Source: Microbacterium halimionae
Lineage (GTDB): Bacteria; Actinomycetota; Actinomycetes; Actinomycetales; Microbacteriaceae
Assembly (NCBI RefSeq): GCF_011761265.1
Contig: NZ_JAAOZB010000002.1
Coordinates: forward strand, 1,054,001-1,118,000
DNA length: 64,000 bases
Direction of reading: 5' to 3'
Shown: in pieces, positions 5,154 to 61,772 of the stretch
Position numbering within the stretch: position 1 is the stretch's first letter
Layout: each line of letters starts with the position of its first letter
The notes under the pieces: generated by a model
Databases searched by the model: none
What the model was told of the DNA's origin: nothing
What the model saw: only the letters and a program-made list of their open reading frames with translations
Program-made: the position numbers and the translations under genes

Positions 5154-5216
5154 GTGAACATAGAAAACATGCGTCGGCGGAATGCGCTGACCACACCAAT
5201 GAGAGGCCCTCAATGA
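5154..5216 (+). CDS. Putative 20-residue leader peptide
   Basis: A GTG at 5154, 6 nt after a TATAAA box, opens a 20-codon frame rich in Arg, Asn and Met. Its TGA at 5214-5216 overlaps the ATG of the next gene (ATGA at 5213-5216). This is the geometry of a leaderless upstream ORF that couples translation of the downstream gene, and it may make expression depend on how the short frame is translated. No known leader peptide is recognised. The coding status is inferred from layout alone; chance cannot be excluded for so short a frame. Confidence 0.4.
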   Translation: MNIENMRRRNALTTPMRGPQ

Positions 5217-5620
5217 ACAACCGTCCCCGTCTGTACCGCAGCATTCCCTACTGGGTGCTTGTCATCGCGTCCGTTGCGGCAATTGCCTATGGCGCATGGT
5301 TGACCGTCGACAAACTTTCAATCATGACTGCAACGCTCGCTGACGGAACAGCCACGGGTGTAGAGGTTTACGCCGGACAGGCATGGGTCGCGTTTGCCGC
5401 GGCATTCGTCGCAGCCGGCCTCATTGGTCTCGTATCAGCCCTTTCGCTCGCTGTCGCACGCTCCGTGTTCGCGTCGCCGGCAGCTGCTGTTGTCGACGTC
5501 GTCGAAATCGTCGAAGAGCCCGCTTCCGAGTCCGTCGAGAGCGTTGAGCCCACCAACGATGCAAGCGACTCGGTCGAGCAGCCCGTCGAAGAAGTCAGCG
5601 ACAGCTCAGCTCAGCGCTGA
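5213..5620 (+). CDS. Small two-helix membrane protein with acidic tail, unknown function
   Basis: This 135-residue protein is not assigned to a characterised family. It has a short basic start, one hydrophobic helix at about 13-30, an external-looking loop with TLADGTATGVEVYAGQ, a second helix at about 57-82, and then a tail of about 50 residues rich in Glu, Val, Ser and Asp. Similar proteins in Microbacteriaceae carry the uninformative label dinucleotide-utilizing enzyme (recalled), which nothing here supports. It has GAGAGG upstream of its ATG and overlaps the stop of a short leader ORF. A strong hairpin terminator follows. Its position between ctaA and ctaB suggests, weakly, a link to respiratory membrane assembly. 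Confidence 0.75.
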   Translation: MNNRPRLYRSIPYWVLVIASVAAIAYGAWLTVDKLSIMTATLADGTATGVEVYAGQAWVAFAAAFVAAGLIGLVSALSLAVARSVFASPAAAVVDVVEIVEEPASESVESVEPTNDASDSVEQPVEEVSDSSAQR

Positions 5621-27229: not shown

Positions 27230-29301
27230 GCGTGGCCGGCACGTTCCATCGCTCGCAAGTCTTTCTTCATATCTTGGACTTCATCGCGAAGCCGAGCCGC
27301 TAGCTCGAATTTCAATTCGGATGCCGCGGTCAGCATTTGGTCCGACAGATCAGCGATCGTGGATCTCAGCTGGTCGGCACCTTCAGATGCAATACCGCCG
27401 CTACGAAGGTTCGGGGTCGGGGCTTTCTTCTTTCCTTTTCCAGCTGACTCGCTTCGCGCCAACATCGCTTTGGTGTCTGCACCTTCGCGCAGGAGCGCAT
27501 CGGTGATGTCAGCAATCTTCTTGCGGAGCGGTTGAGGGTCTACCCCGTGCTCTGTGTTGTAGGAAATCTGTTTCTCACGACGACGATCGGTCTCATCAAT
27601 CGCCTTACGCATCGAATCGGTTATCTTGTCGGCATACATGTGGACTTGTCCCGACACATTTCGCGCCGCACGACCGATGGTCTGGATCAGCGAGGTTCCA
27701 GAACGAAGGAAGCCCTCTTTGTCGGCATCCAAAATCGAAACGAGCGAAACCTCAGGCAGGTCGAGCCCCTCACGTAGCAGGTTGATGCCAACGAGTACGT
27801 CGTAAACGCCAGCACGAAGCTCGGTGAGCAATTCGACACGGCGGAGCGTATCGACATCCGAATGCAAGTAGCGCACTCGCACGCCGTGCTCGCTCAGAAA
27901 GTCAGTCAGCTCTTCTGACATCTTCTTTGTCAACGTGGTGACCAATACGCGTTCATCACGCTCGACACGAAGCCGAATCTCTTCGAGAAGATCGTCAATC
28001 TGGCCCTTCGATGGCTTAACGACAATCTCCGGGTCAACCAAGCCCGTCGGCCGAATGATCTGCTCGACAATTCCGTCAGCGATGCCCATTTCGTAGCGCC
28101 CGGGTGTGGCGGAGAGGTAAACGGTCTGACCGATTCGATTCTTGAACTCGTCCCAGCGAAGTGGGCGATTGTCCATGGCGCTGGGCAGACGGAATCCGTG
28201 CTCCACGAGCGTGCGCTTGCGCGAGGCATCGCCCTCGTACATTGCACCGATCTGCGGAACGGTTACGTGAGACTCATCAATTACCAACAAGAAGTCGTCT
28301 GGAAAAAAGTCCAGAAGTGTGTGGGGTGGCTCCCCCGGCTCACGCACATCGAGGTGTCGTGAATAGTTCTCGATTCCGGAGCAGAATCCCAGTTGCTGAA
28401 GCATTTCAAGGTCGAATGTCGTTCGCATCCGCAACCGCTGCGCTTCCAACAGTTTTCCCTGGGATTCGAACTCTTTGAGTCGCTCAGCGAGTTCTTCTTC
28501 AATAGTCCCAATTGCGCGCTGCACAACGTCTGCTCCTGCAACGTAGTGTGACGCAGGAAAAATGGGCACAGACTGCATCTTTTGGACCACGTCACCCGTC
28601 AAAGGATGCAACATGTAGAGCGCCTCGATCTCGTCGCCGAAGAGCTCGATACGAATCGCGTATTCCTCGTACACCGGAATAATCTCAATCGTGTCGCCAC
28701 GTACACGGAAATTGCCGCGCGAAAAATCGACATCATTGCGGTTGTACTGCATCGAAATGAACTGTCGAATCAATGCGTCACGGTCGTATCGCTCCCCCAC
28801 TTGGAGCGCGACCATCGCACGAAGGTACTCCTCCGGCGCGCCGAGACCGTAGATACACGAAACCGTCGAAACCACCACGACGTCTCGTCGAGATAGCAGG
28901 GAGTTCGTTGTGGAGTGACGCAGCCGCTCAACTTCTGAGTTGATCGACGAGTCTTTCTCAATGAAGGTGTCGGTCTGTGGAACGTACGCTTCCGGTTGGT
29001 AATAGTCGTAGTACGAGACAAAATACTCAACCGCGTTGTGAGGAAGTAGCTCGCGAAACTCGTTTGCAAGCTGCGCAGCCAGCGTCTTATTGTGCGCGAG
29101 TATGAGCGTTGGCCGCTGAACCTGCTCTACAAGCCAAGCCGTCGTCGCTGACTTTCCGGTGCCCGTGGCTCCGAGCAAGACGACATCTGTTTCGCCAGCG
29201 TTGACGCGTGCCGCAAGGTCTGCGATCGCCTTCGGCTGGTCACCTGAAGGTTCATAGTCGCTGACGACCTCGAAGGGACGTACGGAACGAGTCGGCTGCA
29301 T
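27226..29301 (-). CDS. uvrB: Excinuclease ABC subunit B
   Basis: UvrB is the helicase-like damage verifier that UvrA loads and UvrC uses for incision. The 691-residue protein has a Walker [12 protein letters not shown] near 44, the beta-hairpin segment [17 protein letters not shown] at about 96-112, helicase motifs such as DESHVT and the motif VI region QTIGRAARN, and a C-terminal UVR motif that contacts UvrC. The ATG at 29301 has TAACCT exactly 6 nt upstream and no Shine-Dalgarno sequence, so it is probably leaderless. Confidence 0.97.
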
Positions 29302-29307
29302 AAAACT

Positions 29308-29313
29308 AGGTTA
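29308..29313 (-). promoter_or_regulatory. Leaderless-type -10 box (TAACCT) of uvrB
   Basis: TAACCT is followed by AGTTTT (6 nt) and the uvrB ATG; no ribosome binding site lies between. Confidence 0.6.
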
Positions 29314-31208: not shown

Positions 31209-32929
31209 GACGTGATCTCGCTCTCAGAGTGTCGCAATCCGCTCAGACTCGCCGCGCGCGGCGGCAAATGCACTGTGAACGAAGAGCCAGAACCGAGGTC
31301 GGTCGAAAACGAAATGTCCCCGCTATGGGCTCTCACTATGTCCCGGCTAATCGATAGGCCAAGCCCCGTACCACCGGTTGTGCGACTCTGCCCACGGAAG
31401 AAGCGGTCAAAAAGTCGCTCTTGGGCCGCGAGTGGAACTCCGCTTCCCGTGTCGTGCACGGTCACCGTGGTTCCCAATTCGCTGTCTTCGTGTGACACCA
31501 CAGTGACGAGACCACCATCCCGATTGAACTGGATCGCGTTACTTATCAGGTTGTCAAAGACTTGACGCAGTCGAACGGGGTCACCGCACACACGAGCAGA
31601 GTGAACACCATCCGTATTGATAGTTATCGCACGTTCGTCCGCCGCCGCGCGCCACTCTTCTGCTGTTCGCAGAAGCAAGCGCGCCACATCAAGATCCTCA
31701 GGTGACATATTCATATCGAGCGAAAGTCGAGACGTTCGGGATGCCGTCAAAACCTCTGCGACGATCTCGCCGAGGCGATCTCCACTGCGTGCGGCAACCG
31801 TGAGATTCTCCCGCGCGCGCGTAGAGAGGTCAGCATCATCGAGCGCGAGGTCAAGATGACCCATCAACGAAGTCAGCGGGGTTCTCAACTCATGGGAGAT
31901 AGAGGCCACAAGTTCGTCTCGCGCGCGCTGGGCAGTGAGCGCAGCTGTCACGTCCTGCACAATTACCACCGTGCCAGCGTCGACGCCGCGCTCATCCCGG
32001 ATCTTTCGAGCTGTGCTGCTCACAGCCCAACGTCGCTCATTCGGCGCACCGTGCCAGAGAACGTCACGATCGAAAACCTCGCCTCTAAGTGCACGCGCGA
32101 TCGAGCTGGCGGTTGCCGAGACTTCAGTCGTTCCGTCCGAGGCGTAGAGGTTCGCTGCAGTGATGTTCGGGTCAGCGAACCCGGGAATCATGTCAACAAG
32201 ACGGCAGTACGCATCGTTCATGAAGGCGGTATCGCCGCCCGCAGTAAAACGAACGACGCCGAAATCGACAGAATCGAGAACATCTGTGACGAGTTGTTCG
32301 TGCCGCTGCGCGCGAGCCAAAGCACCAGCCAGCACTTCTGATCTCGAAACAGTGAGGACGCGCTGCGCTCCGCTGCGCCGGGCCGCGGTAAAACTCGCGA
32401 AAGAAACCGCGGCGATCACAGCAGGGAGAACAAACGCGGAGAACAGCCCGAAGGCCGCATTCGAGAGCACCAGCAGCACCCAGTACAGCGGCGGTATCAC
32501 GACAAGGCTCGTTATCATCGTCGCCAATCCAAGCGAACCCAGCCACATCGCAGGGAACACCCACAGCAACCCATATCCGCCGGCGGGACTGGCGGAACGC
32601 AGAATCGCAATCGCGAATATGTCGATGATCGGGATGACCGCGATCAAAAGAGCACTGCCACGATTCCACGGCACGATCAGGGTCGCACCGGCAGACGCGA
32701 AGATGAGTAATACCCCGAGGAGAAAGAAGCCGGGGTCAGTGGTCGCACCGACAGCGAATTCAAGAACAAGAATCACAAGAACGACGGCGCAGAGCGGTAC
32801 TTGATTCAACAGTGCGCTACGCGCGCGATCTGCGTCCGCGTACGTGCCAGGCTGACGTCCAATGTGGGCCAATGCCCACGTGCCGCGCGAAGTCTCCCCC
32901 GACGCAACGTTGCCCTCAGCACGCTTCAT
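31205..32929 (-). CDS. Membrane sensor histidine kinase with PAS domain
   Basis: The 574-residue protein has about six membrane helices in the first 180 residues, a PAS domain at about 210-325, a HisKA dimerisation domain with the phospho-acceptor H346 in SISHELRTPL, and an HATPase domain with NLISNAIQFN, DTGSGVP and TGLGLSIS. No response regulator gene is adjacent, so it is an orphan kinase. It overlaps the degenerate GGDEF gene by 4 bp. Its ATG has TACCGT exactly 6 nt upstream and no Shine-Dalgarno sequence, pointing to a leaderless message. Confidence 0.93.
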   Translation of the reverse strand: MKRAEGNVASGETSRGTWALAHIGRQPGTYADADRARSALLNQVPLCAVVLVILVLEFAVGATTDPGFFLLGVLLIFASAGATLIVPWNRGSALLIAVIPIIDIFAIAILRSASPAGGYGLLWVFPAMWLGSLGLATMITSLVVIPPLYWVLLVLSNAAFGLFSAFVLPAVIAAVSFASFTAARRSGAQRVLTVSRSEVLAGALARAQRHEQLVTDVLDSVDFGVVRFTAGGDTAFMNDAYCRLVDMIPGFADPNITAANLYASDGTTEVSATASSIARALRGEVFDRDVLWHGAPNERRWAVSSTARKIRDERGVDAGTVVIVQDVTAALTAQRARDELVASISHELRTPLTSLMGHLDLALDDADLSTRARENLTVAARSGDRLGEIVAEVLTASRTSRLSLDMNMSPEDLDVARLLLRTAEEWRAAADERAITINTDGVHSARVCGDPVRLRQVFDNLISNAIQFNRDGGLVTVVSHEDSELGTTVTVHDTGSGVPLAAQERLFDRFFRGQSRTTGGTGLGLSISRDIVRAHSGDISFSTDLGSGSSFTVHLPPRAASLSGLRHSESEITS

Positions 32930-32935
32930 AGTCTG

Positions 32936-32941
32936 ACGGTA
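32936..32941 (-). promoter_or_regulatory. Leaderless-type -10 box (TACCGT) of the histidine kinase operon
   Basis: TACCGT is followed by CAGACT (6 nt) and the ATG; no Shine-Dalgarno sequence is seen. Confidence 0.55.
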
Positions 32942-32973: not shown

Positions 32974-34572
32974 TTAGGGCGCTGCCATCGCATCCTGCTT
33001 TTCATAGCCTATGAGCAACTCTTTTTCGTGCTCATGGGATGGCACAAAGATAGCGATCAAAGCGGCACCTACAACAATCGCGATCGCCCCCACGAGGTAG
33101 GCGCCGAGAGCACCCGCAACCAGACTCTGGGTCGCGCCCGCGAGAATTTGATCTTTGAACTGTGGGTACTGCTCAGCTACATGGAGCGCAGACGAGTAGG
33201 ACGCTTGAAGCGCACGGGTAACCTCCGCTGTCACAGTGGTCGATTCCGAGCTAGCCGCGATGAGATTACCGAACGAACGCGCGAAGCCGGCAGCGAGGAT
33301 CGCGCCGAGCAACGCTTGCAAGATGGAGCCACCCAGATCACGCTGAAGGTCGGATGTCGCGGATGCCATACCGATGCGATGAATCGGCGTCGAGTCGGTC
33401 AGTGCGCGAGACGCCGGTGTCATGGCGAAAGCCACTCCGCATCCGATGACGAAAAACCCGGCGCCTACTAGCCAATAGGGAGTGTGTTCGCGCCAGAACA
33501 ACGTCGTGACGAACCCCACAAGCACAAGTCCGTAACCTGTGAGCATCGTTACCCGGGTGCCTCGCGTCGAGACGAGGCGCGCTGAGAAAGGTGCGAAGAG
33601 GAGCAAGCCGACAGCTGCTGGTATTGCCGCGAGTCCAGCATCGAGAGTGCCGTATCCCAAGATGTCTTGCAGGAACTGCTGCGCGACGAACATGAATCCC
33701 ATGAGCGCGCCGAAAACAATCATGCCCGCCACAGCAGGCACCCAGAACATTCGCCGCCGCGCGACCTTGAGGTCGTATAGCGGGTTCACGGCCGTCATCT
33801 GACGCCAGGCAAAACCGACGAGGAACACGACGGCGACAGAGATAAGGGTGAGGCCCGCTGCCCCATCCCCGGGAGCGAAGACGATACCGATACCCAACAC
33901 CAGTGTCGCGACAGCGAATACCGAGAGAACTCCACCGAAGTGATCCACTTTCTCTTTCGACTCTGCAACATGCGAAGGAACAAAGAGGAATACCAGGATG
34001 AAGCCGAGCGCTGCGATTGGAGCCGCGAGAAGAAAAGCAGACCCCCACCAGAACTTTTCGAGGAGAAGTCCAGCCAAAACTGACCCGATGACCGTTGACA
34101 TGGCGGAAACGCTCGACCACAGCGCGATCGCGGTAGTTCGCTGTTTTCCTTGCGCCCACAGCGCTGTAATGAGCGAAAGCGTCGTGGGGTAGGCCATTCC
34201 GGCAGCAATCCCGGTGAAGAGCCGAGCAACGATAAGGAGCTCAATAGACGGGGCGAAGGCGGCAAAGAAGCTGACAATAACCGTCAATGCAAGCCCGAGG
34301 AGTAAAAGCTGTTTACGTCCGTATCGATCGGCTAAAGCTCCGAGATAGAGCACTGACATCGCAAGCCCGAGCGAACAGCCCAGCGCGACAAGATTTAGCG
34401 ACGTTTGACCGGCACCAAAGGCATCCCCAATTTCCGGCAGCGCAATATTGGCCGCGGCGAGGTTGATATTGCACACCAGCGCGGCGAGTATCAGAGCCGA
34501 GAGCACGAGTACCGGGCGTTTGGGCGCTTCGGGAGCTATCGACGTAGCTGTGCTCGCAGCGGGGTCGTTCAT
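32974..34572 (-). CDS. MFS transporter, DHA2-type drug exporter-like
   Basis: This 532-residue integral membrane protein has about 14 hydrophobic segments. The motif A region GALADRYGRKQLL lies in the loop after the second helix and the motif C-like SVLAGLLLEKFWW in the fifth, which places it in the major facilitator DHA2 group of proton-coupled exporters. The substrate cannot be predicted. The first 20 residues form a polar cytoplasmic tail. TAGGGT lies 6 nt before its ATG without a Shine-Dalgarno sequence. It is divergent from the methyltransferase gene, and their promoters are only some 70 bp apart. Confidence 0.88.
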   Translation of the reverse strand: MNDPAASTATSIAPEAPKRPVLVLSALILAALVCNINLAAANIALPEIGDAFGAGQTSLNLVALGCSLGLAMSVLYLGALADRYGRKQLLLLGLALTVIVSFFAAFAPSIELLIVARLFTGIAAGMAYPTTLSLITALWAQGKQRTTAIALWSSVSAMSTVIGSVLAGLLLEKFWWGSAFLLAAPIAALGFILVFLFVPSHVAESKEKVDHFGGVLSVFAVATLVLGIGIVFAPGDGAAGLTLISVAVVFLVGFAWRQMTAVNPLYDLKVARRRMFWVPAVAGMIVFGALMGFMFVAQQFLQDILGYGTLDAGLAAIPAAVGLLLFAPFSARLVSTRGTRVTMLTGYGLVLVGFVTTLFWREHTPYWLVGAGFFVIGCGVAFAMTPASRALTDSTPIHRIGMASATSDLQRDLGGSILQALLGAILAAGFARSFGNLIAASSESTTVTAEVTRALQASYSSALHVAEQYPQFKDQILAGATQSLVAGALGAYLVGAIAIVVGAALIAIFVPSHEHEKELLIGYEKQDAMAAP

Positions 34573-34578
34573 GCGCCT

Positions 34579-34584
34579 ACCCTA
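34579..34584 (-). promoter_or_regulatory. Leaderless-type -10 box (TAGGGT) of the MFS gene
   Basis: TAGGGT is followed by AGGCGC (6 nt) and the ATG of the transporter. The site sits in a short divergent promoter region. Confidence 0.55.
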
Positions 34585-34644: not shown

Positions 34645-35490
34645 ATGAACGGGGACGATGCCGACATCGAGTGGTCGGACGCAAGAGATGCGAATCTCAA
34701 GAATTGGAACGATCGCGTCGCGATCCACGAGGAAGCATATGAGCTCGGGAGGTTCGACGACCCGCACTATATTTCGCGCGTGGTCCAAGACGACCTTCCG
34801 GTGCTTTCGCGGTTCCTGCCCGCGCAATCGCTGCGTGGGCTTGAGTTGTGTCATTTGCAGTGCCACATCGGTACCGACACGGTTTCGCTCGCCCGTTCTG
34901 GTGCCACGGTCACCGGTGTCGACTTTTCGGCCCCTGCACTTGAGTCCGCCGAGCGACTGGCTGACCGCGCGCAAGTGCCCGCGTCCTGGGTCTTGACCGA
35001 TGTTCTCGACGCGGCAGCCGCAGTGCGCGCCACGTTTGATGTTGTCTACACAAGCATTGGGACAATCACCTGGCTCGGTGATCTAAACAAATGGGCCAGG
35101 CAGATCGCCTCCCTCCTCAAACCCGGAGGCGTATTCTTCATCCGGGATGGGCATCCGATCCTCTATTCGCTCGACGAGAGTGCTCCCAGTTTGCAGCTGC
35201 GATATCGCTACTTCAACGTCGGCCGTGCGCAGGAGTGGGACGACGAATCGACGTATGCTGGCGACGGCAAAATCACGAATACGCGCACCTACGAGTGGCC
35301 GCATCCGTTGTCGCAGATCGTCATGTCGCTCATCGCGGCTGGGCTTCGCATCGAGTTCTTCGACGAGGGCGATACTTTGCCCTGGCGGTTCAGCGACCGC
35401 ATGATCGAGGTAGACAGAGCGTACGTGTGGCCAGCGCCGGAGCGGGATGTCGTGCCCTGCACTTACACGATTGTTGCGCGGAAAAACTGA
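34645..35490 (+). CDS. Class I SAM-dependent methyltransferase
   Basis: This 281-residue cytoplasmic protein has the class I methyltransferase fold. Motif I is GLELCHLQCHIGTDTVSLA, where HLQCHIG replaces the usual Gly-rich loop as in a known subset of the family (recalled); motif II is TVTGVDFSAPAL; motif IV is DVVYTSIGTITWL, and LLKPGGVFFIRDGHP follows. The substrate is unknown. The start at 34645 rests on a TATCCT box 7 nt upstream; the frame also has an ATG at 34612. It is divergent from the MFS exporter, so a shared role in modifying and exporting a compound is possible but unproven. Confidence 0.87.
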   Translation: MNGDDADIEWSDARDANLKNWNDRVAIHEEAYELGRFDDPHYISRVVQDDLPVLSRFLPAQSLRGLELCHLQCHIGTDTVSLARSGATVTGVDFSAPALESAERLADRAQVPASWVLTDVLDAAAAVRATFDVVYTSIGTITWLGDLNKWARQIASLLKPGGVFFIRDGHPILYSLDESAPSLQLRYRYFNVGRAQEWDDESTYAGDGKITNTRTYEWPHPLSQIVMSLIAAGLRIEFFDEGDTLPWRFSDRMIEVDRAYVWPAPERDVVPCTYTIVARKN

Positions 35491-35598
35491 CGAGCGCTAA
35501 CAGCTCGATAGCGAGCCTAGGTAACTTCTACCTATCGACGGGAGAAAAAGTTCAGTGCACGCTCTAAATGAATAGTCATTCGGAGAGAGGTTCAGACG

Positions 35599-36084
35599 GT
35601 GTCGGACACACGTGCAACGAAATTCGCTGAAATAGCCGTTATCACGGTCATCGCCGCAGCCTAGTCTGGTTGCATGGCCAACCCTATTGATCAGCTCGTT
35701 CAGGGTGGAGCTGAGATTCTCGTAGCGCAAGCAGTAGGGGGCGCGAGCGGTGCGGACGTCGATATCGACGTCAACGGCGGTTCAGATATAGGTCCGCCAG
35801 ATGGGTGGCCTGGCCTCCCCATGCCAGAGGGAGAAGTGATATCCGCGATGCGGATTGATGACTCATACTCCGCGACCATCTTGACGGCTGATGAACGAAC
35901 CGTGGAAGACACCATCGCTGACTTGAATGCTCTCGGCTACGCAGAAGTCACTACGGCCGACCTGGGTGGATTCAAAACAGTGAGCGTCGCCGATGACGAC
36001 CTGACAATTCTGTTGTCGTGGTTTCAGGATGAAGAAAACGGCGGGTATTCAGTCAGTTACTCAGTGGTCGCGACCCAGTCATAG
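35599..36084 (+). pseudogene. Probable lipoprotein with amber stop in its signal peptide, or shortened leaderless gene
   Basis: From GTG 35599, with GGAGAGAGG 8 nt upstream, the frame reads SDTRATKFAEIAVITVIAAA, then TAG at 35662-35664, then SGC and on without a break to 36084. A sense codon such as TTG there would give a canonical lipoprotein signal ending LSGC. The mature part, rich in Asp and Gly with the segment PDGWPGLPMPEGEV, resembles small Microbacteriaceae lipoproteins (recalled). The TAG is also the start of TAGTCT, which lies 6 nt before ATG 35674. The cell may therefore now make a 136-residue cytosolic form (35674-36084). No function is known. It is read here as an interrupted lipoprotein gene with moderate confidence. 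Confidence 0.6.
35662..35667 (+). promoter_or_regulatory. Leaderless-type -10 box (TAGTCT) before ATG 35674
   Basis: TAGTCT is 6 nt before the ATG, and TTATCA at 35639-35644 lies 17 nt upstream as a 4-of-6 match to a -35 box. The same TAG interrupts the upstream frame. Confidence 0.45.
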
Positions 36085-36162
36085 CGCGAGTTCCGTCCGT
36101 GGTAGCTGAGCGCTCCAAGTTAGCGTTGCTGCGCCCCTCACCCTCTCGCTACTCTCAGAGCG

Positions 36163-36243
36163 ATGGGGAACATCGTAGCGATCCGGCGTCCTGGCCGTTG
36201 CTTGCGCGCGGCGCACTCGTTGCCCACATCATCAGCGCAGTGA
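36163..36243 (+). other. Possible short leader ORF inside the regulator N-terminus
   Basis: TACTCT at 36150-36155 lies 7 nt before an ATG at 36163 that opens a 26-codon frame in the +1 phase. Its TGA at 36241-36243 overlaps a GTG (36240) in the regulator frame. The layout copies the leader ORF at 5154, but starting at 36240 would drop the conserved WPLLAR segment, so this may be chance. Confidence 0.25.
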
Positions 36244-37365
36244 CACGGCGTCCTGCACGTTCGCAGCTCATCCGCGGTCCGAGCGGAATCGGCAAAACCA
36301 CAATCGCGGCCCACGCTGCGCGAGCACTCTCCGAACGCGGTTTGCGTGTCGTGCCGATCGTGGGTCTTGCTGAGCTCACGCACGTACCGCTCGCAGCTCT
36401 AGCTCCACTTCTCGCCACGGCCCCAGCATCTGAGAAGCGCATCGATCTGCGCGCGCAGTCCCTGGTGACGCTGATCGGCGCGGCGCCGAACGAGTACATT
36501 TTGGTCGTCGATGATGCACCCCTTCTTGACGATATCTCGGCGAGCACTCTGTATCAGCTCATAAGAGTGTTCGGAGTCGCCGCGGTGATGACGGCTCGTG
36601 ACGAGCACAAGATTCACGGCCCGTTGGAAAGGCTGCATCACGAGAATCTCCTCGATGTGATCGACGTGCCACCACTGTCAGCCGTGGAAGTCGAAGAGAT
36701 CGTCGAACGTTACCTCGACAGGCCACTTCAGCCCGATATGGGGGCAACTCTGCAGCGACACGTTGAGGGCAATCCCCTCTACCTTCGTGAAATTGTCTTC
36801 GAGGCCCAGCACGCGGGGCGAGTGCTGGCGAAGGACTTCGGTGTCGTAATCGAGCCAACTTCTCTTCCGCGATACTGGCTCGACAACGTGCGAACACGAA
36901 TAATCGACCTTCATCCTGCAGCGCGCCAACTGGCGCAACTGCTCAGTGTGTCGCAGCCCTGGCCTGCATCCTTGGCGTTGTCCATGGGTGCTGATGCACT
37001 CGACGAACTGCGACGCCGAGCGGTTGTGTCAATAGCGCCAGACGAACGGCAACTCGTTCGTCTGGCGCATCCATTCTTTACGGAAGCGATTGCTGGTGAC
37101 ATGAGCACCACCGTTCACAAGGAAACTGTGCGCCGGGCCGCCGCCGCGCTGCGCTCCACGGGCGTCGACTCTGATCGTTTCACCGCCGCGCATCTCCTCC
37201 TCGGAGAGCCCGAAACGGATGTCCGAGAATTGGAGTGGGCTGCGAGCTTTGCTCGCGACGCCCGCGACGCGGCAGCCGGGTTACGGCTCGCACGCGCTGC
37301 CCGATACCGCGGAGGAGACTTCACGACAGACTTCATTCTCGCCGTAGCGGCGCCTGCTGTCGGGG

Positions 37366-38772
37366 ATGTCACGGAAGCAGAAGAAGGATTCGCGTCATCG
37401 ATGTTGGCGGCGCCGTCCGATGAGGATCGCGCTCTCGTTCTACTCCGATGGGGACAGCATGAGGCTTACAGAATGCGCCGGCCTGAGCTCGCGATCTCGC
37501 GATCTCGCGATCTCGCGAACAACGCTCAGCCTTCCCGCGCTCTCTGCAACGGCGAGAGAGATCGTGCTGCCCGAACTCATCAAGTGGCGATTGATGGCAG
37601 GAGAGCAAGCGAATCTAGGAGAACTGAACGGTAGTGCCCGAACCGACGCACTCAGCGCGGTATCCCACGGTTTGGTCCGGCCATGGTCGCCACCATGGCC
37701 GGACATTCGACGGATGCTGTGGCCGCGGATCTCCGCGACACGGGCAATGTTGCCGCAAACACACAAGGATCTGCCGCACGCGTCGGATTTGCTTGATCTC
37801 TCTGAGTTTCTCGTCGCCGTCGCCGATGGTCGAATTGTCGACGCTCATGACTTTGCGGCATTGCGCCGAGCGAGTGGGCCGACGGAAGCGGCCGGTATCT
37901 GGGCGTACACTCTCGCCCTCATCCATGTGCATGCCGGCGCCCACGGCAAAGCTGAAGATCTTGCAGAGTTGGCAGTGCGCCAACTTGAGTGGCGAGACTC
38001 CACCGGCCTCGTTGGGTGCGCTCGAGCCCTTTCTGCAACGACAGCGGCGCTCGTAGGTGACGTAGATCTCGCCCGCACGCGCTTAGCTGAGCTACCTGCG
38101 GCGTCCTTGCAAGATGTGAAAACTGTCCTCCAGCGAGCTGAAGTCCTCGCCTGGCTAGATGTCTCCGCGGGTAGGCGCGAAGAGGCCGCGCAACGCCTCC
38201 GCGCGGCTGTCGAGCAAGCGCTCGCGCAAGAGCACGACGTGCTGGCGGCCATCACCGCGACTATCGCGATCCGGATAGGAATGCCGAATGCTGTGTTCGA
38301 CGTCTTGAAGAAATCCACCTCCGAGCGCTCATCGGAAATATTTACCGCCGTATGCCAAGCCGCCGATGCAGCATCGCGAGAGGATCACGCTGTCGCTGTA
38401 TCGCTGACTTCGAGGTTGCGCGCTGCCGGTCTCGATGCTTTCGCGCTTCACCTCTGCAGCGTCGCTGCCGCCCAATCCTCCGATGCCATGATTCGCCGCA
38501 GAACTCTGCTTGTCTGTGCGGAGCTCAACGAAAGCGCCTCGGCAGATCCGGCACTGCGGCAATCGCAAACGAAAACACTCAGAGTTGGGCTGTTATCACG
38601 ACGAGAACTTGAGATTGCTCACCTCGCGGCGCGGCGAATACGCAGCCGACACATCGCCGAACAGCTCGGCGTTTCAGTGCGAACTGTTGAGAATCGCCTC
38701 GGGAATATCTACCGCAAGCTCGAGGTGAATGGTCGCGAAGAGCTCGCGGCTCTCGAGGTCAAAAGTCCCTGA
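37366..38772 (+). pseudogene. LuxR/LAL-type regulator, C-terminal half with LuxR helix-turn-helix (frameshifted)
   Basis: This frame holds the rest of the regulator: a long run of helical, TPR-like repeats and a C-terminal LuxR DNA-binding domain with LLSRRELEIAHLAARRIRSR and VSVRTVENRLGNIYRKL. Genuine homology starts in the repeat near 37490-37520; the codons upstream of it are read out of frame and the first ATG at 37366 has no meaning. If translated on its own from an internal start (for example ATG 37459) it would be a DNA-binding fragment without the ATPase. Frame phase relative to the N-terminal half is +1. Confidence 0.82.
37488..37518 (+). repeat. Tandem 8-bp repeat CTCGCGAT, 3.9 copies, at the frameshift point
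   Basis: CTCGCGAT occurs at 37488, 37496 and 37504, followed by a 7-base partial copy ending at 37518. The unit is not a multiple of three. One more copy (+8) or two fewer (-16) would join the two halves of the regulator into one frame, reading LAISRSRDLAISRTTL or LAISRTTL respectively. Slipped-strand change in copy number would switch the gene on or off. Confidence 0.9.
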
Positions 38773-51435: not shown

Positions 51436-52035
51436 TTACGAATCGGTGTCAACCGCGCCGCGAGCGTTGTACACGAGAACGTCGGCTTCGCCGTAGGCGC
51501 GATAAACCTCGAGAGCCGCCTCATGTCCGACGCCGATCGTGACGCGAATTCCTCGGCGCTCGAACTGCTCAGCCCAATCGTCTACGACGGGTCCTTCATC
51601 GAAACCGGTCAGTTCCTCAAGAAGCGGGCCTTCACCAGCAACCACCAAGGAACGGATGCCGCTCCACATCGTCGCGCCGTAGCACATGACACACGGACGC
51701 CAATTGACAACCAGCTCGAGGTCGGCTCCGTCCGCACCCAGGTCCCAGCGCCCGAGGCGTGTCTGGGCCAAGCTCAGCGCTGTGACCTCCGCGTGAGCGG
51801 AACTCAGCCCCGAGCTCAGCACAACATTCACGCCGACAGCGACGATCTCGTCGGTCGCGTTATTCACCACGATCGCAGCGAAGGGGCCGCCGTTGCCCGC
51901 TCGCCAATTGCGATCAGCGAGCTCGTTCACCAGCGCCATTCGTGCTTCGCCGCTCGGGAGCGACTGCGGCAGGGTTTCAAGATCTGCCAGAAGCCATTCG
52001 GGTAGCGCGGCTTGATAGGAGGTTGCGAAAGTCAT
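51436..52035 (-). CDS. Nucleoside deaminase (CDA superfamily)
   Basis: This 199-residue protein belongs to the zinc-dependent cytidine/deoxycytidylate deaminase superfamily. The zinc site is formed by AHAEVTAL (His and catalytic Glu) and PCVMC. It is closest in pattern to guanine and related nucleoside deaminases, given the extra helical C-terminal part with EVYRAYGEADVLVYN, but the substrate is not certain; a tRNA adenosine deaminase is usually shorter. The ATG at 52035 was chosen because the upstream 104 residues of the frame are meaningless. It is divergent from the exonuclease gene. Confidence 0.88.
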   Translation of the reverse strand: MTFATSYQAALPEWLLADLETLPQSLPSGEARMALVNELADRNWRAGNGGPFAAIVVNNATDEIVAVGVNVVLSSGLSSAHAEVTALSLAQTRLGRWDLGADGADLELVVNWRPCVMCYGATMWSGIRSLVVAGEGPLLEELTGFDEGPVVDDWAEQFERRGIRVTIGVGHEAALEVYRAYGEADVLVYNARGAVDTDS

Positions 52036-52101
52036 GAATCCATTGTGCCGACGGAATGTTTCGCCAAATCGCTTTCCCTCGCCAGCGTGCACCCGCCGTG
52101 C

Positions 52102-52107
52102 CAAAAT
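52102..52107 (+). promoter_or_regulatory. Possible leaderless -10 box (CAAAAT) of the exonuclease gene
   Basis: CAAAAT is followed by AACCGT (6 nt) and the GTG at 52114. It keeps only part of the TANNNT pattern, so the call is weaker. Confidence 0.35.
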
Positions 52108-52113
52108 AACCGT

Positions 52114-53037
52114 GTGAATCCCCGACTCATGCTGCTCGACACTGCATCGTTGTACTTTCGCGCGTTCTACGGGGTTCCCGATACTGTGCGGTCTCCCGAC
52201 GGTGTTCCCGTCAACGCAGCACGAGGGCTGCTCGATATCATCACGAAGCTCGTGACCGTCTATGAGCCCACCCATATCGTGGCGTGTTGGGATGACGATT
52301 GGAGACCGCAGTGGCGGGTCGATCTGGTGCCGTCCTACAAGGCTCATCGCGTGGCCGAGATCGTAGCGACCGGACCCGACGTCGAAGAGGTCCCTGATTC
52401 CCTGGAGGCACAGCTCCCCCTTATTCGTGATGCTCTCGCGGTTGTCGGTATCGCAGTACTCGGAGCTCCCGGGTACGAAGCAGATGACGTCATTGGAACC
52501 CTCGCGAGTTCAGCGGAAATCCCCGTCGATATCGTCACAGGCGACCGTGACCTTTTTCAGCTGATAGACGACGTTCGTGACATTCGCGTCATATACACAG
52601 CCAAAGGTATGAGCCACCTCGAAGTCATGACAGAACAAACTCTGCGCGACAAGTACGGGGTCACCGGGGCACAGTACGCCGACTTCGCAACACTGCGGGG
52701 TGATTCGTCCGATGGGCTGCCGGGGGTGCGAGGCGTCGGAGACAAGACCGCGGCAGCACTCCTCAGCGCGCACGGAGATCTAGCAGGCGTCATTTCTGAA
52801 GCGGATCATGGCGATGCACTGAGCCCGAATCTGCAAGCGAAGATTCGGGATGCGGCGGAATACCTCGCTGTAGCACCTCAGGTGGTCGCAGTCGCGCGCG
52901 ACGTACCACTCACAGTGCTCGACACCGCACTGCAGTCGCTCACACCAGAAGAAATGGTGGATGCTGAGCGCCTCGCGAGCCAATGGGGACTCGGTGCCGC
53001 AATCACCCGGCTGACCGACGCTCTCACCCGCTATTGA
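52114..53037 (+). CDS. 5'-3' exonuclease (FEN/Pol I N-terminal family)
   Basis: This 307-residue protein is a stand-alone 5'-3' exonuclease domain like the N-terminus of DNA polymerase I. The acidic metal sites are present: LLDTASLYFRAFYG near 6, WDDDW near 54, YEADDVIG, VTGDRDLFQL and GDSSDGLPGVRGVGDKTAA with its helix-hairpin-helix. It may remove RNA primers or flaps. GTG 52114 is chosen, with ATG 52129 as an alternative. Its stop overlaps that of the convergent MFS gene by 7 bp. Confidence 0.92.
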   Translation: MNPRLMLLDTASLYFRAFYGVPDTVRSPDGVPVNAARGLLDIITKLVTVYEPTHIVACWDDDWRPQWRVDLVPSYKAHRVAEIVATGPDVEEVPDSLEAQLPLIRDALAVVGIAVLGAPGYEADDVIGTLASSAEIPVDIVTGDRDLFQLIDDVRDIRVIYTAKGMSHLEVMTEQTLRDKYGVTGAQYADFATLRGDSSDGLPGVRGVGDKTAAALLSAHGDLAGVISEADHGDALSPNLQAKIRDAAEYLAVAPQVVAVARDVPLTVLDTALQSLTPEEMVDAERLASQWGLGAAITRLTDALTRY

Positions 53038-54326
53038 TTGGCCTTCATCACCGGATTGCGGCCACGGCGAGACGCCGAGATCAGGGCAGCCAGGAGAGCA
53101 AAAGCATAGAGAGATGCAAGCACGATCAGCAGTGACTCTCCCGCCGCCCAGCCCCCGGTAGCTTCATGGAGAGCTCCCACCACGGGGGCGCCCACGGCGC
53201 CCACGGCGTAGCCGCCGCCTTGAACGAATGCTGACATGCCAGCGGCCTCCCGATCAGAGCGCGACACAGCCACCAAGACGGTGAAGATAACGACGAAGCC
53301 TCCCGAGTGCGCGATAGCTCCAAATATCAACCACACCCAGGTGAGACCCGGCAGGGCAAGCATTCCGATAGTGAGCAAGAGCCAGCACACACAAATGACG
53401 CTCGCTGGCACCCAGTGTGGCGCAAACCTGCCGAGGATCGGCACGACGAATGCCCCGAGAATTCCCATCCCTTGAAAAAGGGATGCAAGCGCGCCGGCGC
53501 CCACGCGGTCAAGACCGAGCTCATCCGCGGTGATAGAAGGTAGCCAGGTCGAAAACGCGTAATAGATGGTGGTCTGACAGCTGAACGTTGCTAGCAGCAG
53601 CCAGGCAGTCGGGTTTCGAAAAACAGAACGGGATTTCGTGACCACCGGCAGCGGGCCTGTGACAGTTGCTGGATCAATTCCCCCGGTATTCGAGTCATCC
53701 GAGCTGACACCTGAATATCTCTCACCGGAAAGATTGCCACTTGCGCGGATTCGCCGTAGGTGAACGCCCCATAGAAACAGACCGATGACGGTAATGAAAC
53801 CCCAGAACACAAGTGCCCATGACCAGCCGACGACATCTGCCAGTGGTGCTGTGAGAAGTGACGTGAGCAGCGAACCGGCGTTGAGAGTCGCAACGTATGC
53901 AGCTGTGATCATTCCGACGCGTGGCCCCGGCACATCCCGTCGAATAATCACTGGGATGACGACGTTACCGAGCGTGATGGCCGCCCCGATGACCAGCATG
54001 CCGGTGAGCATCCACCCGAATCCGGGCAGTGCCCGGATGAGAGTTCCAGCCAACACTCCGGAAAGTGACAATAGAAGTGCTCGCTCTGCGCCAGAGCGTC
54101 GAATCACAATCGCGGCGATCGGCGTCAGTAACGCAAACATCAAGACCGGTGCTGTCGTCAGCAAGCCGACACTTGCTGAGCCGAGACCTAAATCCCGCTC
54201 GATGTCACGCAGAACGGGTGTTGGCGCAACGATTGGCCCTCGCAGACTCAACGCAGCGACAAGCACACCTGCGATCACGAGCCACGGGATACCCCGAGAC
54301 GCCACCGAACGGACAGACGAGGTCAT
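53031..54326 (-). CDS. MFS transporter, CynX/NimT-type
   Basis: This 431-residue protein has 12 hydrophobic segments and the family start SLRGPIVAPTPVLRDIERDLGLG seen in the cyanate/nitroimidazole (CynX/NimT) group. A polar loop of about 35 residues rich in Ser and Asp lies between the two halves. The substrate is unknown. Its ATG has TAGACT exactly 6 nt upstream and no Shine-Dalgarno sequence. It follows trpD on the same strand after about 30 nt, but the -10 box between them argues for a separate transcript. Confidence 0.88.
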   Translation of the reverse strand: MTSSVRSVASRGIPWLVIAGVLVAALSLRGPIVAPTPVLRDIERDLGLGSASVGLLTTAPVLMFALLTPIAAIVIRRSGAERALLLSLSGVLAGTLIRALPGFGWMLTGMLVIGAAITLGNVVIPVIIRRDVPGPRVGMITAAYVATLNAGSLLTSLLTAPLADVVGWSWALVFWGFITVIGLFLWGVHLRRIRASGNLSGERYSGVSSDDSNTGGIDPATVTGPLPVVTKSRSVFRNPTAWLLLATFSCQTTIYYAFSTWLPSITADELGLDRVGAGALASLFQGMGILGAFVVPILGRFAPHWVPASVICVCWLLLTIGMLALPGLTWVWLIFGAIAHSGGFVVIFTVLVAVSRSDREAAGMSAFVQGGGYAVGAVGAPVVGALHEATGGWAAGESLLIVLASLYAFALLAALISASRRGRNPVMKANQ

Positions 54327-54332
54327 CGTCTC

Positions 54333-54338
54333 AGTCTA
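54333..54338 (-). promoter_or_regulatory. Leaderless-type -10 box (TAGACT) of the CynX-type MFS gene
   Basis: TAGACT is followed by GAGACG (6 nt) and the ATG of the transporter. Confidence 0.6.
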
Positions 54339-61346: not shown

Positions 61347-61352
61347 TAAGCT
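61347..61352 (+). promoter_or_regulatory. Leaderless-type -10 box (TAAGCT) of the rhodanese gene
   Basis: TAAGCT is followed by GACCGC (6 nt) and the ATG at 61359. Confidence 0.5.
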
Positions 61353-61358
61353 GACCGC

Positions 61359-61772
61359 ATGACCTCGACTGCATACTTTGATGCCAAGCTCGCACACGAA
61401 ACCGATCCGAGCGACGTTTACGCCGACCAGAAGGCGGGATTGGATTTCGTGTTAGTCGATGTGCGAAGTGTCGAAGCGTGGCAGCAGGGCCACATCCGAG
61501 GCGCTCTCCACATGCCCTATCGCGATATCGAGCAACGCGCACCGCAAGACATCTTGCGTTCGACGCCAGTCGTGGTCTACTGCTGGAGCCCAGGTTGCAA
61601 CGCCGGCGCGAAGGGAGCGCGGGGATTCGCGAAGCTGGGTTACGCAGTTAAAGAAATGATTGGTGGCTACGAGTATTGGGCCCGTGAAGGGCAACCCACG
61701 GAAGATTCAAACGGCGACTTGCCCCGAATCTTCGACCCGCTCGTGATGTTGGTTCGAGATGGCAAAGGCTAG
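61359..61772 (+). CDS. Rhodanese-like domain protein
   Basis: This 137-residue protein has one rhodanese domain with VDVRSVEAWQQGHIRGALHMP near 33-53 and an active-site loop CWSPGCNAGAKG in which the first Cys would form the persulfide. It probably transfers sulfur or acts in thiosulfate or cyanide metabolism; the partner is unknown. It follows the urate hydroxylase gene but has its own leaderless-type promoter. Its stop lies 6 nt from that of the convergent phosphatase gene, with no hairpin between. Confidence 0.9.
   Translation: MTSTAYFDAKLAHETDPSDVYADQKAGLDFVLVDVRSVEAWQQGHIRGALHMPYRDIEQRAPQDILRSTPVVVYCWSPGCNAGAKGARGFAKLGYAVKEMIGGYEYWAREGQPTEDSNGDLPRIFDPLVMLVRDGKG

Follow-up and report, generated by a model that had tools for sequence, protein, structure and literature searches.

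Bacterial lipoproteins of the lipobox type are processed by Lgt and signal peptidase II. Regulators of the STAND/LuxR type are also called LAL-type. In M. tuberculosis, 73% of primary start sites have a TANNNT motif whose centre lies 7-12 bp before them, and SNPs that create a TANNNT often yield new ones (PMC3898074). A second paper also reports new boxes that arose from single changes (PMC6728331). The gene at 35599-36084 of the window (the whole 64-kb stretch of DNA analysed here) is best read, with a probability of about 0.85, as that of an inactivated surface lipoprotein whose neighbouring regulator gene is broken too, the pair representing joint decay of a module with an intact upstream dyad. 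Relatives keep this pair of genes, and the bacterium appears to have lost it. This is ordinary gene decay and not a new kind of gene. The lipoprotein gene has the following parts:

35582-35590, + strand: Shine-Dalgarno-like GGAGAGAGG, 8 nt before GTG 35599 (from sequence)
35599-35673, + strand: lipoprotein signal-peptide remnant, with GTG start, h-region, TAG replacing the lipobox Leu, then SGC (from sequence and homologues)
35662-35664, + strand: in-frame TAG, a leucine codon in the G128 orthologue (from sequence and homologues)
35671-36084, + strand: mature lipoprotein part from Cys 35671-35673 onward, frame open, 84% identity to G128

The frame that begins at GTG 35599 reads VSDTRATKFAEIAVITVIAAA, then the TAG, then SGCMANPIDQ..., such that no uninterrupted frame runs from the start through the lipobox Cys. 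Behind the stop the same frame is open from ATG 35674 to TAG 36082-36084 and has 136 codons for amino acids. The sequence-only reading had described a Shine-Dalgarno sequence and GTG opening a signal peptide that is cut by TAG before SGC, and this observation is confirmed; the interpretation placed on it, that either a base change had cut a lipoprotein and created a promoter for a cytosolic form or the signal-like stretch was due to chance, is partly supported. G128 is the closest relative found, the top hit when 5.1 kb of the window was compared with 198 genomes of the genus. It is collinear with the whole window, with 82% identity overall and 86% around the lipoprotein gene. Its lipoprotein gene is intact and encodes 161 aa with the lipobox LSGC (beginning MPKKRAMKLTEIAVIAVIAAALSGCIANPVDQ...).

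Homologues were collected with one genome per species, and the stop was seen in the one window genome. A genus search with a distant homologue as the query found matches in 21 of 366 genomes (own genome included), and a profile search of the family gave hits in 190 of 398 genomes and 57 of 85 genera; a minority of these genomes were read. The 63 loci examined comprise 20 from the genus search, 29 from the profile search (which returned 30, the thirtieth being the window itself), L126, and 13 further profile matches in which no signal peptide had been aligned (L144-L156; L157 and L107 are one locus). L023 and L024 were left out, as they were judged to match by the signal peptide alone. Lipobox position -3 in L145-L156 was read by eye. 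The earlier search pattern required [GAS]C. This position, the residue before SGC, is readable in 61 of the 63 loci including G128: it is Leu in 59, Val in two (L019 and L154) and never a stop. The nonsense change is thus specific to this lineage and lies in a real lipoprotein gene, which bears out the suggestion that a base change cut a lipoprotein. The lipoprotein pattern, a hydrophobic stretch and then [LVI]-x-[GAS]-C, is likewise present in 61 of the 63 loci, G128 included. The lipobox of L107/L157 is unreadable because the contig ends there. L144 matches only the mature domain, beginning mid-domain, and none of its three upstream frames holds a signal peptide; it may be a fragment or a signal-less member of the family. 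The proposal that the signal-like stretch arose by chance is rejected, since it aligns with the signal peptides of intact homologues. Signal-less homologues starting at the equivalent of ATG 35674 were sought in the 63 loci and none was found. A convergent stop at the same place was also considered and rejected; L111 and L126 carry TAG elsewhere in the protein. Among the matches listed, the in-frame stops of L111, L126 and the window are all TAG.

The conserved and open frame behind the TAG would also be expected if the codon were read through or recoded to yield the full lipoprotein. TAG is, however, an ordinary terminator here (it ends 14 of the 42 window genes with an uninterrupted G128 match), none of the 45 tRNA places found in the genome has a CTA, TTA or TCA anticodon that could suppress amber, ochre or opal stops, and no stop occupies position -3 in the 61 homologues read. 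Readthrough is therefore extremely improbable. The gene has the marks of a pseudogene: a disabling lesion relative to intact orthologues and no intact copy in the genome, where the sole other match (E-value: 0.57) covers only the signal-peptide stretch.

The mature domain of 137 residues is, as judged by database comparison, of no known family. Pfam gave no match over its cut-off for the window protein, and the Pfam and NCBIfam tables for 12 aligned members of the lipoprotein family held none over cut-off. A PDB search with the lipoprotein gave a best E-value of 0.38, and a single-sequence AlphaFold2 model had a pLDDT of 39 and no usable fold. A literature search with crude terms found no paper on the gene or the module among the matches listed.

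The regulator gene that follows the lipoprotein gene is divided as follows:

36099-37634, + strand: 5' part of a STAND/LuxR-type regulator with an AAA/NACHT-like domain, its frame lost at an octamer array
37366-38772, + strand: 3' part of the regulator, read in a different frame, with a GerE (LuxR) DNA-binding domain
37488-37518, + strand: tandem array of the octamer CTCGCGAT, 3.9 copies, +16 nt relative to G128, which is the frameshift

The regulator next to the lipoprotein gene in G128 is intact (874 aa), with an N-terminal NACHT/AAA-like domain and a C-terminal GerE domain. The NTPase and GerE domains thus occur in one chain in G128 and in separate frames in the window. Alignment of the two places 16 extra nucleotides (two 8-bp units) at 37484, followed by smaller, mutually offsetting indels. 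The G128 regulator comes closest to NCBIfam AbsR2, a partial match at 76 bits against a cut-off of 850. The array itself is absent from G128, which is 16 nt shorter at that place, and 20 nt of the array sequence match the window genome at this one place. As gain or loss of units would shift the regulator frame, the array could act as a slippage switch.

Two adjoining genes broken in one genome, one of them at a repeat array of the error-prone sort, might indicate that sequencing or assembly produced the TAG and the octamer expansion as artefacts, the organism itself having intact copies of the two genes. This is quite unlikely. The assembly consists of 3 contigs and is 99.91% complete, and the two lesions are of different kinds and lie 1.8 kb apart. 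Of 58 window ORFs compared with G128, 42 others match it without interruption (coverage 0.89-1.00). The 16 left out of this set are the broken pair (3 ORFs), a methyltransferase with another start and end, and 12 dropped by hand, most of which lack a clear, full or uninterrupted G128 match, while some do have a match (e.g. 5213-5620 and 52012-53037). In the reverse direction, 60 G128 ORFs were tested against the window and 12 were flagged, the only interior breaks accepted being those of the lipoprotein and regulator pair. In five others, stops are confined to the first 37 residues (start set too far upstream), and one has a stop six residues before its end. G128 ORFs 14, 24, 35 and 56 were judged to be shadow frames, with no Pfam match at an E-value of 0.01; ORF 14 overlaps window secG. 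ORFs 5 and 59 have no window match of 60% identity, and ORF 59 lies past the window end. Within the 64 kb, no further gene accepted as real is judged to be broken relative to G128.

Upstream of the lipoprotein gene lies a further element:

35518-35534, no strand assigned: dyad TAGGTA-ACTTC-TACCTA, intact, a candidate operator

The window dyad is identical to that of G128. The pattern TRRGTA-N5-TACYYA, which was defined after its own hits had been viewed, precedes the lipoprotein match by at most about 250 nt in 11 of 48 loci (L028, L097, L098, L101-L106 and L108, besides the window); it is absent from the remaining 153,864 bases of the 48 loci and averages 0.0 occurrences in 200 crude shuffles. 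With up to two mismatches, the dyad has one match in the window (0.09 expected). Genome-wide, at no more than one mismatch, the site at 35518-35534 is the sole match, and the backward control also gives one. A regulator homologue is found near the lipoprotein gene in 17 of 50 loci, the window and G128 included, in flanks that are mostly about 1.5 kb. Eleven of these 17 are closely related to the regulator of G128 or of L102; the remaining six (L004, L005, L007, L008, L009 and L121) are distant (25-30% identity) or match at the DNA-binding end only. The regulator is a neighbour in 10 of the 11 dyad loci and in 6 of the 37 without the dyad (Fisher p 1.2e-5, a value that overstates independence because the dyad loci come from three genera only, with 2, 2 and 7 loci). 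The eleventh dyad locus has its regulator about 7.5 kb away. In 12-kb stretches, a regulator with 38-43% identity over about 850 residues is present in all four dyad loci and in none of the eight without a dyad. The lipoprotein, the regulator and the dyad recur together in this bacterial family, as a module. The regulator would act at the dyad on the lipoprotein gene, and the two genes probably share an operon.

Selection on the pair was estimated from dN/dS relative to G128, which pools the window and G128 lineages, there being no close outgroup for polarising the changes. The ratio is 0.52 in the signal segment (24 codons with few differences), 0.18 in the mature lipoprotein part, and in the regulator 0.17 before the octamer array and 0.32 after it. 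Ten intact control genes give 0.005-0.183 and the methyltransferase 0.08, which puts 0.17-0.18 at the top of the control range. The values of 0.18 for the mature part and 0.17 for the regulator before the array suggest that most of the divergence from G128 arose under constraint. The pattern fits genes whose long-standing constraint was lifted recently, change being greater past the frameshift. The lone stop does not date the inactivation: had half of the observed differences accumulated neutrally, only about 1.0 nonsense change would be expected. The dS relative to G128 at 35599-38769 is 0.32-0.51, below that of the ten control genes (0.73-1.90), perhaps through recent exchange of a segment between lineages.

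The sequence-only reading had also proposed that the same base change created a promoter for a cytosolic form. In its fullest version, the promoter would be leaderless and the cell would now make the mature domain as a functional cytosolic protein. The elements concerned are as follows:

35639-35667, + strand: promoter-like pair TTATCA-N17-TAGTCT (TTATCG and TTGTCT in G128)
35674-35676, + strand: ATG, mature position 2, where reinitiation or a leaderless start is possible; G128 has ATA (Ile)

The distances given for these elements are correct: TTATCA lies at 35639-35644, the spacer is 17 nt, and TAGTCT at 35662-35667 is followed by 6 nt and ATG 35674. TAGTCT fits TANNNT and is centred about 9.5 bp before this ATG, and the idea is physically reasonable given that TANNNT-creating SNPs often yield new start sites in M. 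tuberculosis (PMC3898074). Of the 11 TANNNT-N6-ATG sites in the window, seven have their box and ATG preserved in G128, and five of these seven coincide with predicted starts of genes (29301, 32929, 34572, 54326 and 61359), which makes leaderless-type starts plausible in this organism. The box and ATG of these candidate leaderless genes are at 29299-29313, 32927-32941, 34570-34584, 54324-54338 and 61347-61361. Unlike these five, the box and ATG at the lipoprotein gene are both missing from G128 (TTGTCT...ATA). The box alone is also within chance, since 12 of 100 shuffles reach the 11 sites of the window (7.33 expected), and a sigma-70 promoter scan of 35400-36200 found nothing over threshold. 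The GCC triplet before the box lacks the SRN extension, which is weak evidence as just 49% of TANNNT promoters have it (PMC3898074). The downstream frame is open, with a dN/dS of 0.18, which speaks for the cytosolic form; an open frame would, however, be expected after a recent lesion as well as for a retained short form. The cytosol would be the wrong place for a domain that lies behind a lipobox in 61 of 63 loci, and the broken state of the adjacent regulator favours simple loss of function. Creation of a promoter for a cytosolic form is thus possible, judging from the letters, but unlikely. Reinitiation at ATG 35674, nine bases past the stop, is possible as well. If the cytosolic form were real, a single substitution in a lipobox would be a one-step change of cell compartment.

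The proposed model for decay of the module is as follows. The lipoprotein gene once would have encoded a signal peptide, an LSGC-type lipobox and a mature domain. The nonsense change at lipobox position -3 would end translation after 21 residues, and hence no lipidated, exported protein would be made. The regulator would have been inactivated by the two extra repeat units relative to G128. We infer the loss of function, its recency and the direction of both changes: this copy of the module was probably inactivated recently. The locus is a clear example of lineage-specific decay in which two neighbouring genes, probably partners, carry different lesions and the element upstream of them is undamaged. 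More useful, in our judgement, is the module, which combines an uncharacterised lipoprotein with a STAND/LuxR-type regulator and a rare dyad in three genera and offers a testable set of regulator, site and target.

The locus can be compared with known systems on three counts. It resembles the lipobox lipoproteins in the signal peptide and lipobox found in 61 of 63 homologous loci (LSGC in G128), but the Leu codon of the window lipobox is a stop and the protein has no Pfam match over cut-off. The regulator resembles the STAND/LuxR (LAL-type) regulators in the AAA/NACHT-like N-terminus and C-terminal GerE domain of the G128 orthologue, although that protein scores far below the AbsR2 cut-off and the window copy is split by a frameshift. 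TAGTCT lies at a distance from ATG 35674 that fits the leaderless TANNNT genes mapped in M. tuberculosis (PMC3898074); in contrast to those genes, the box is a candidate read from the sequence, it and the ATG are absent from G128, and the ancestral lipoprotein gene starts by a Shine-Dalgarno sequence at GTG 35599.
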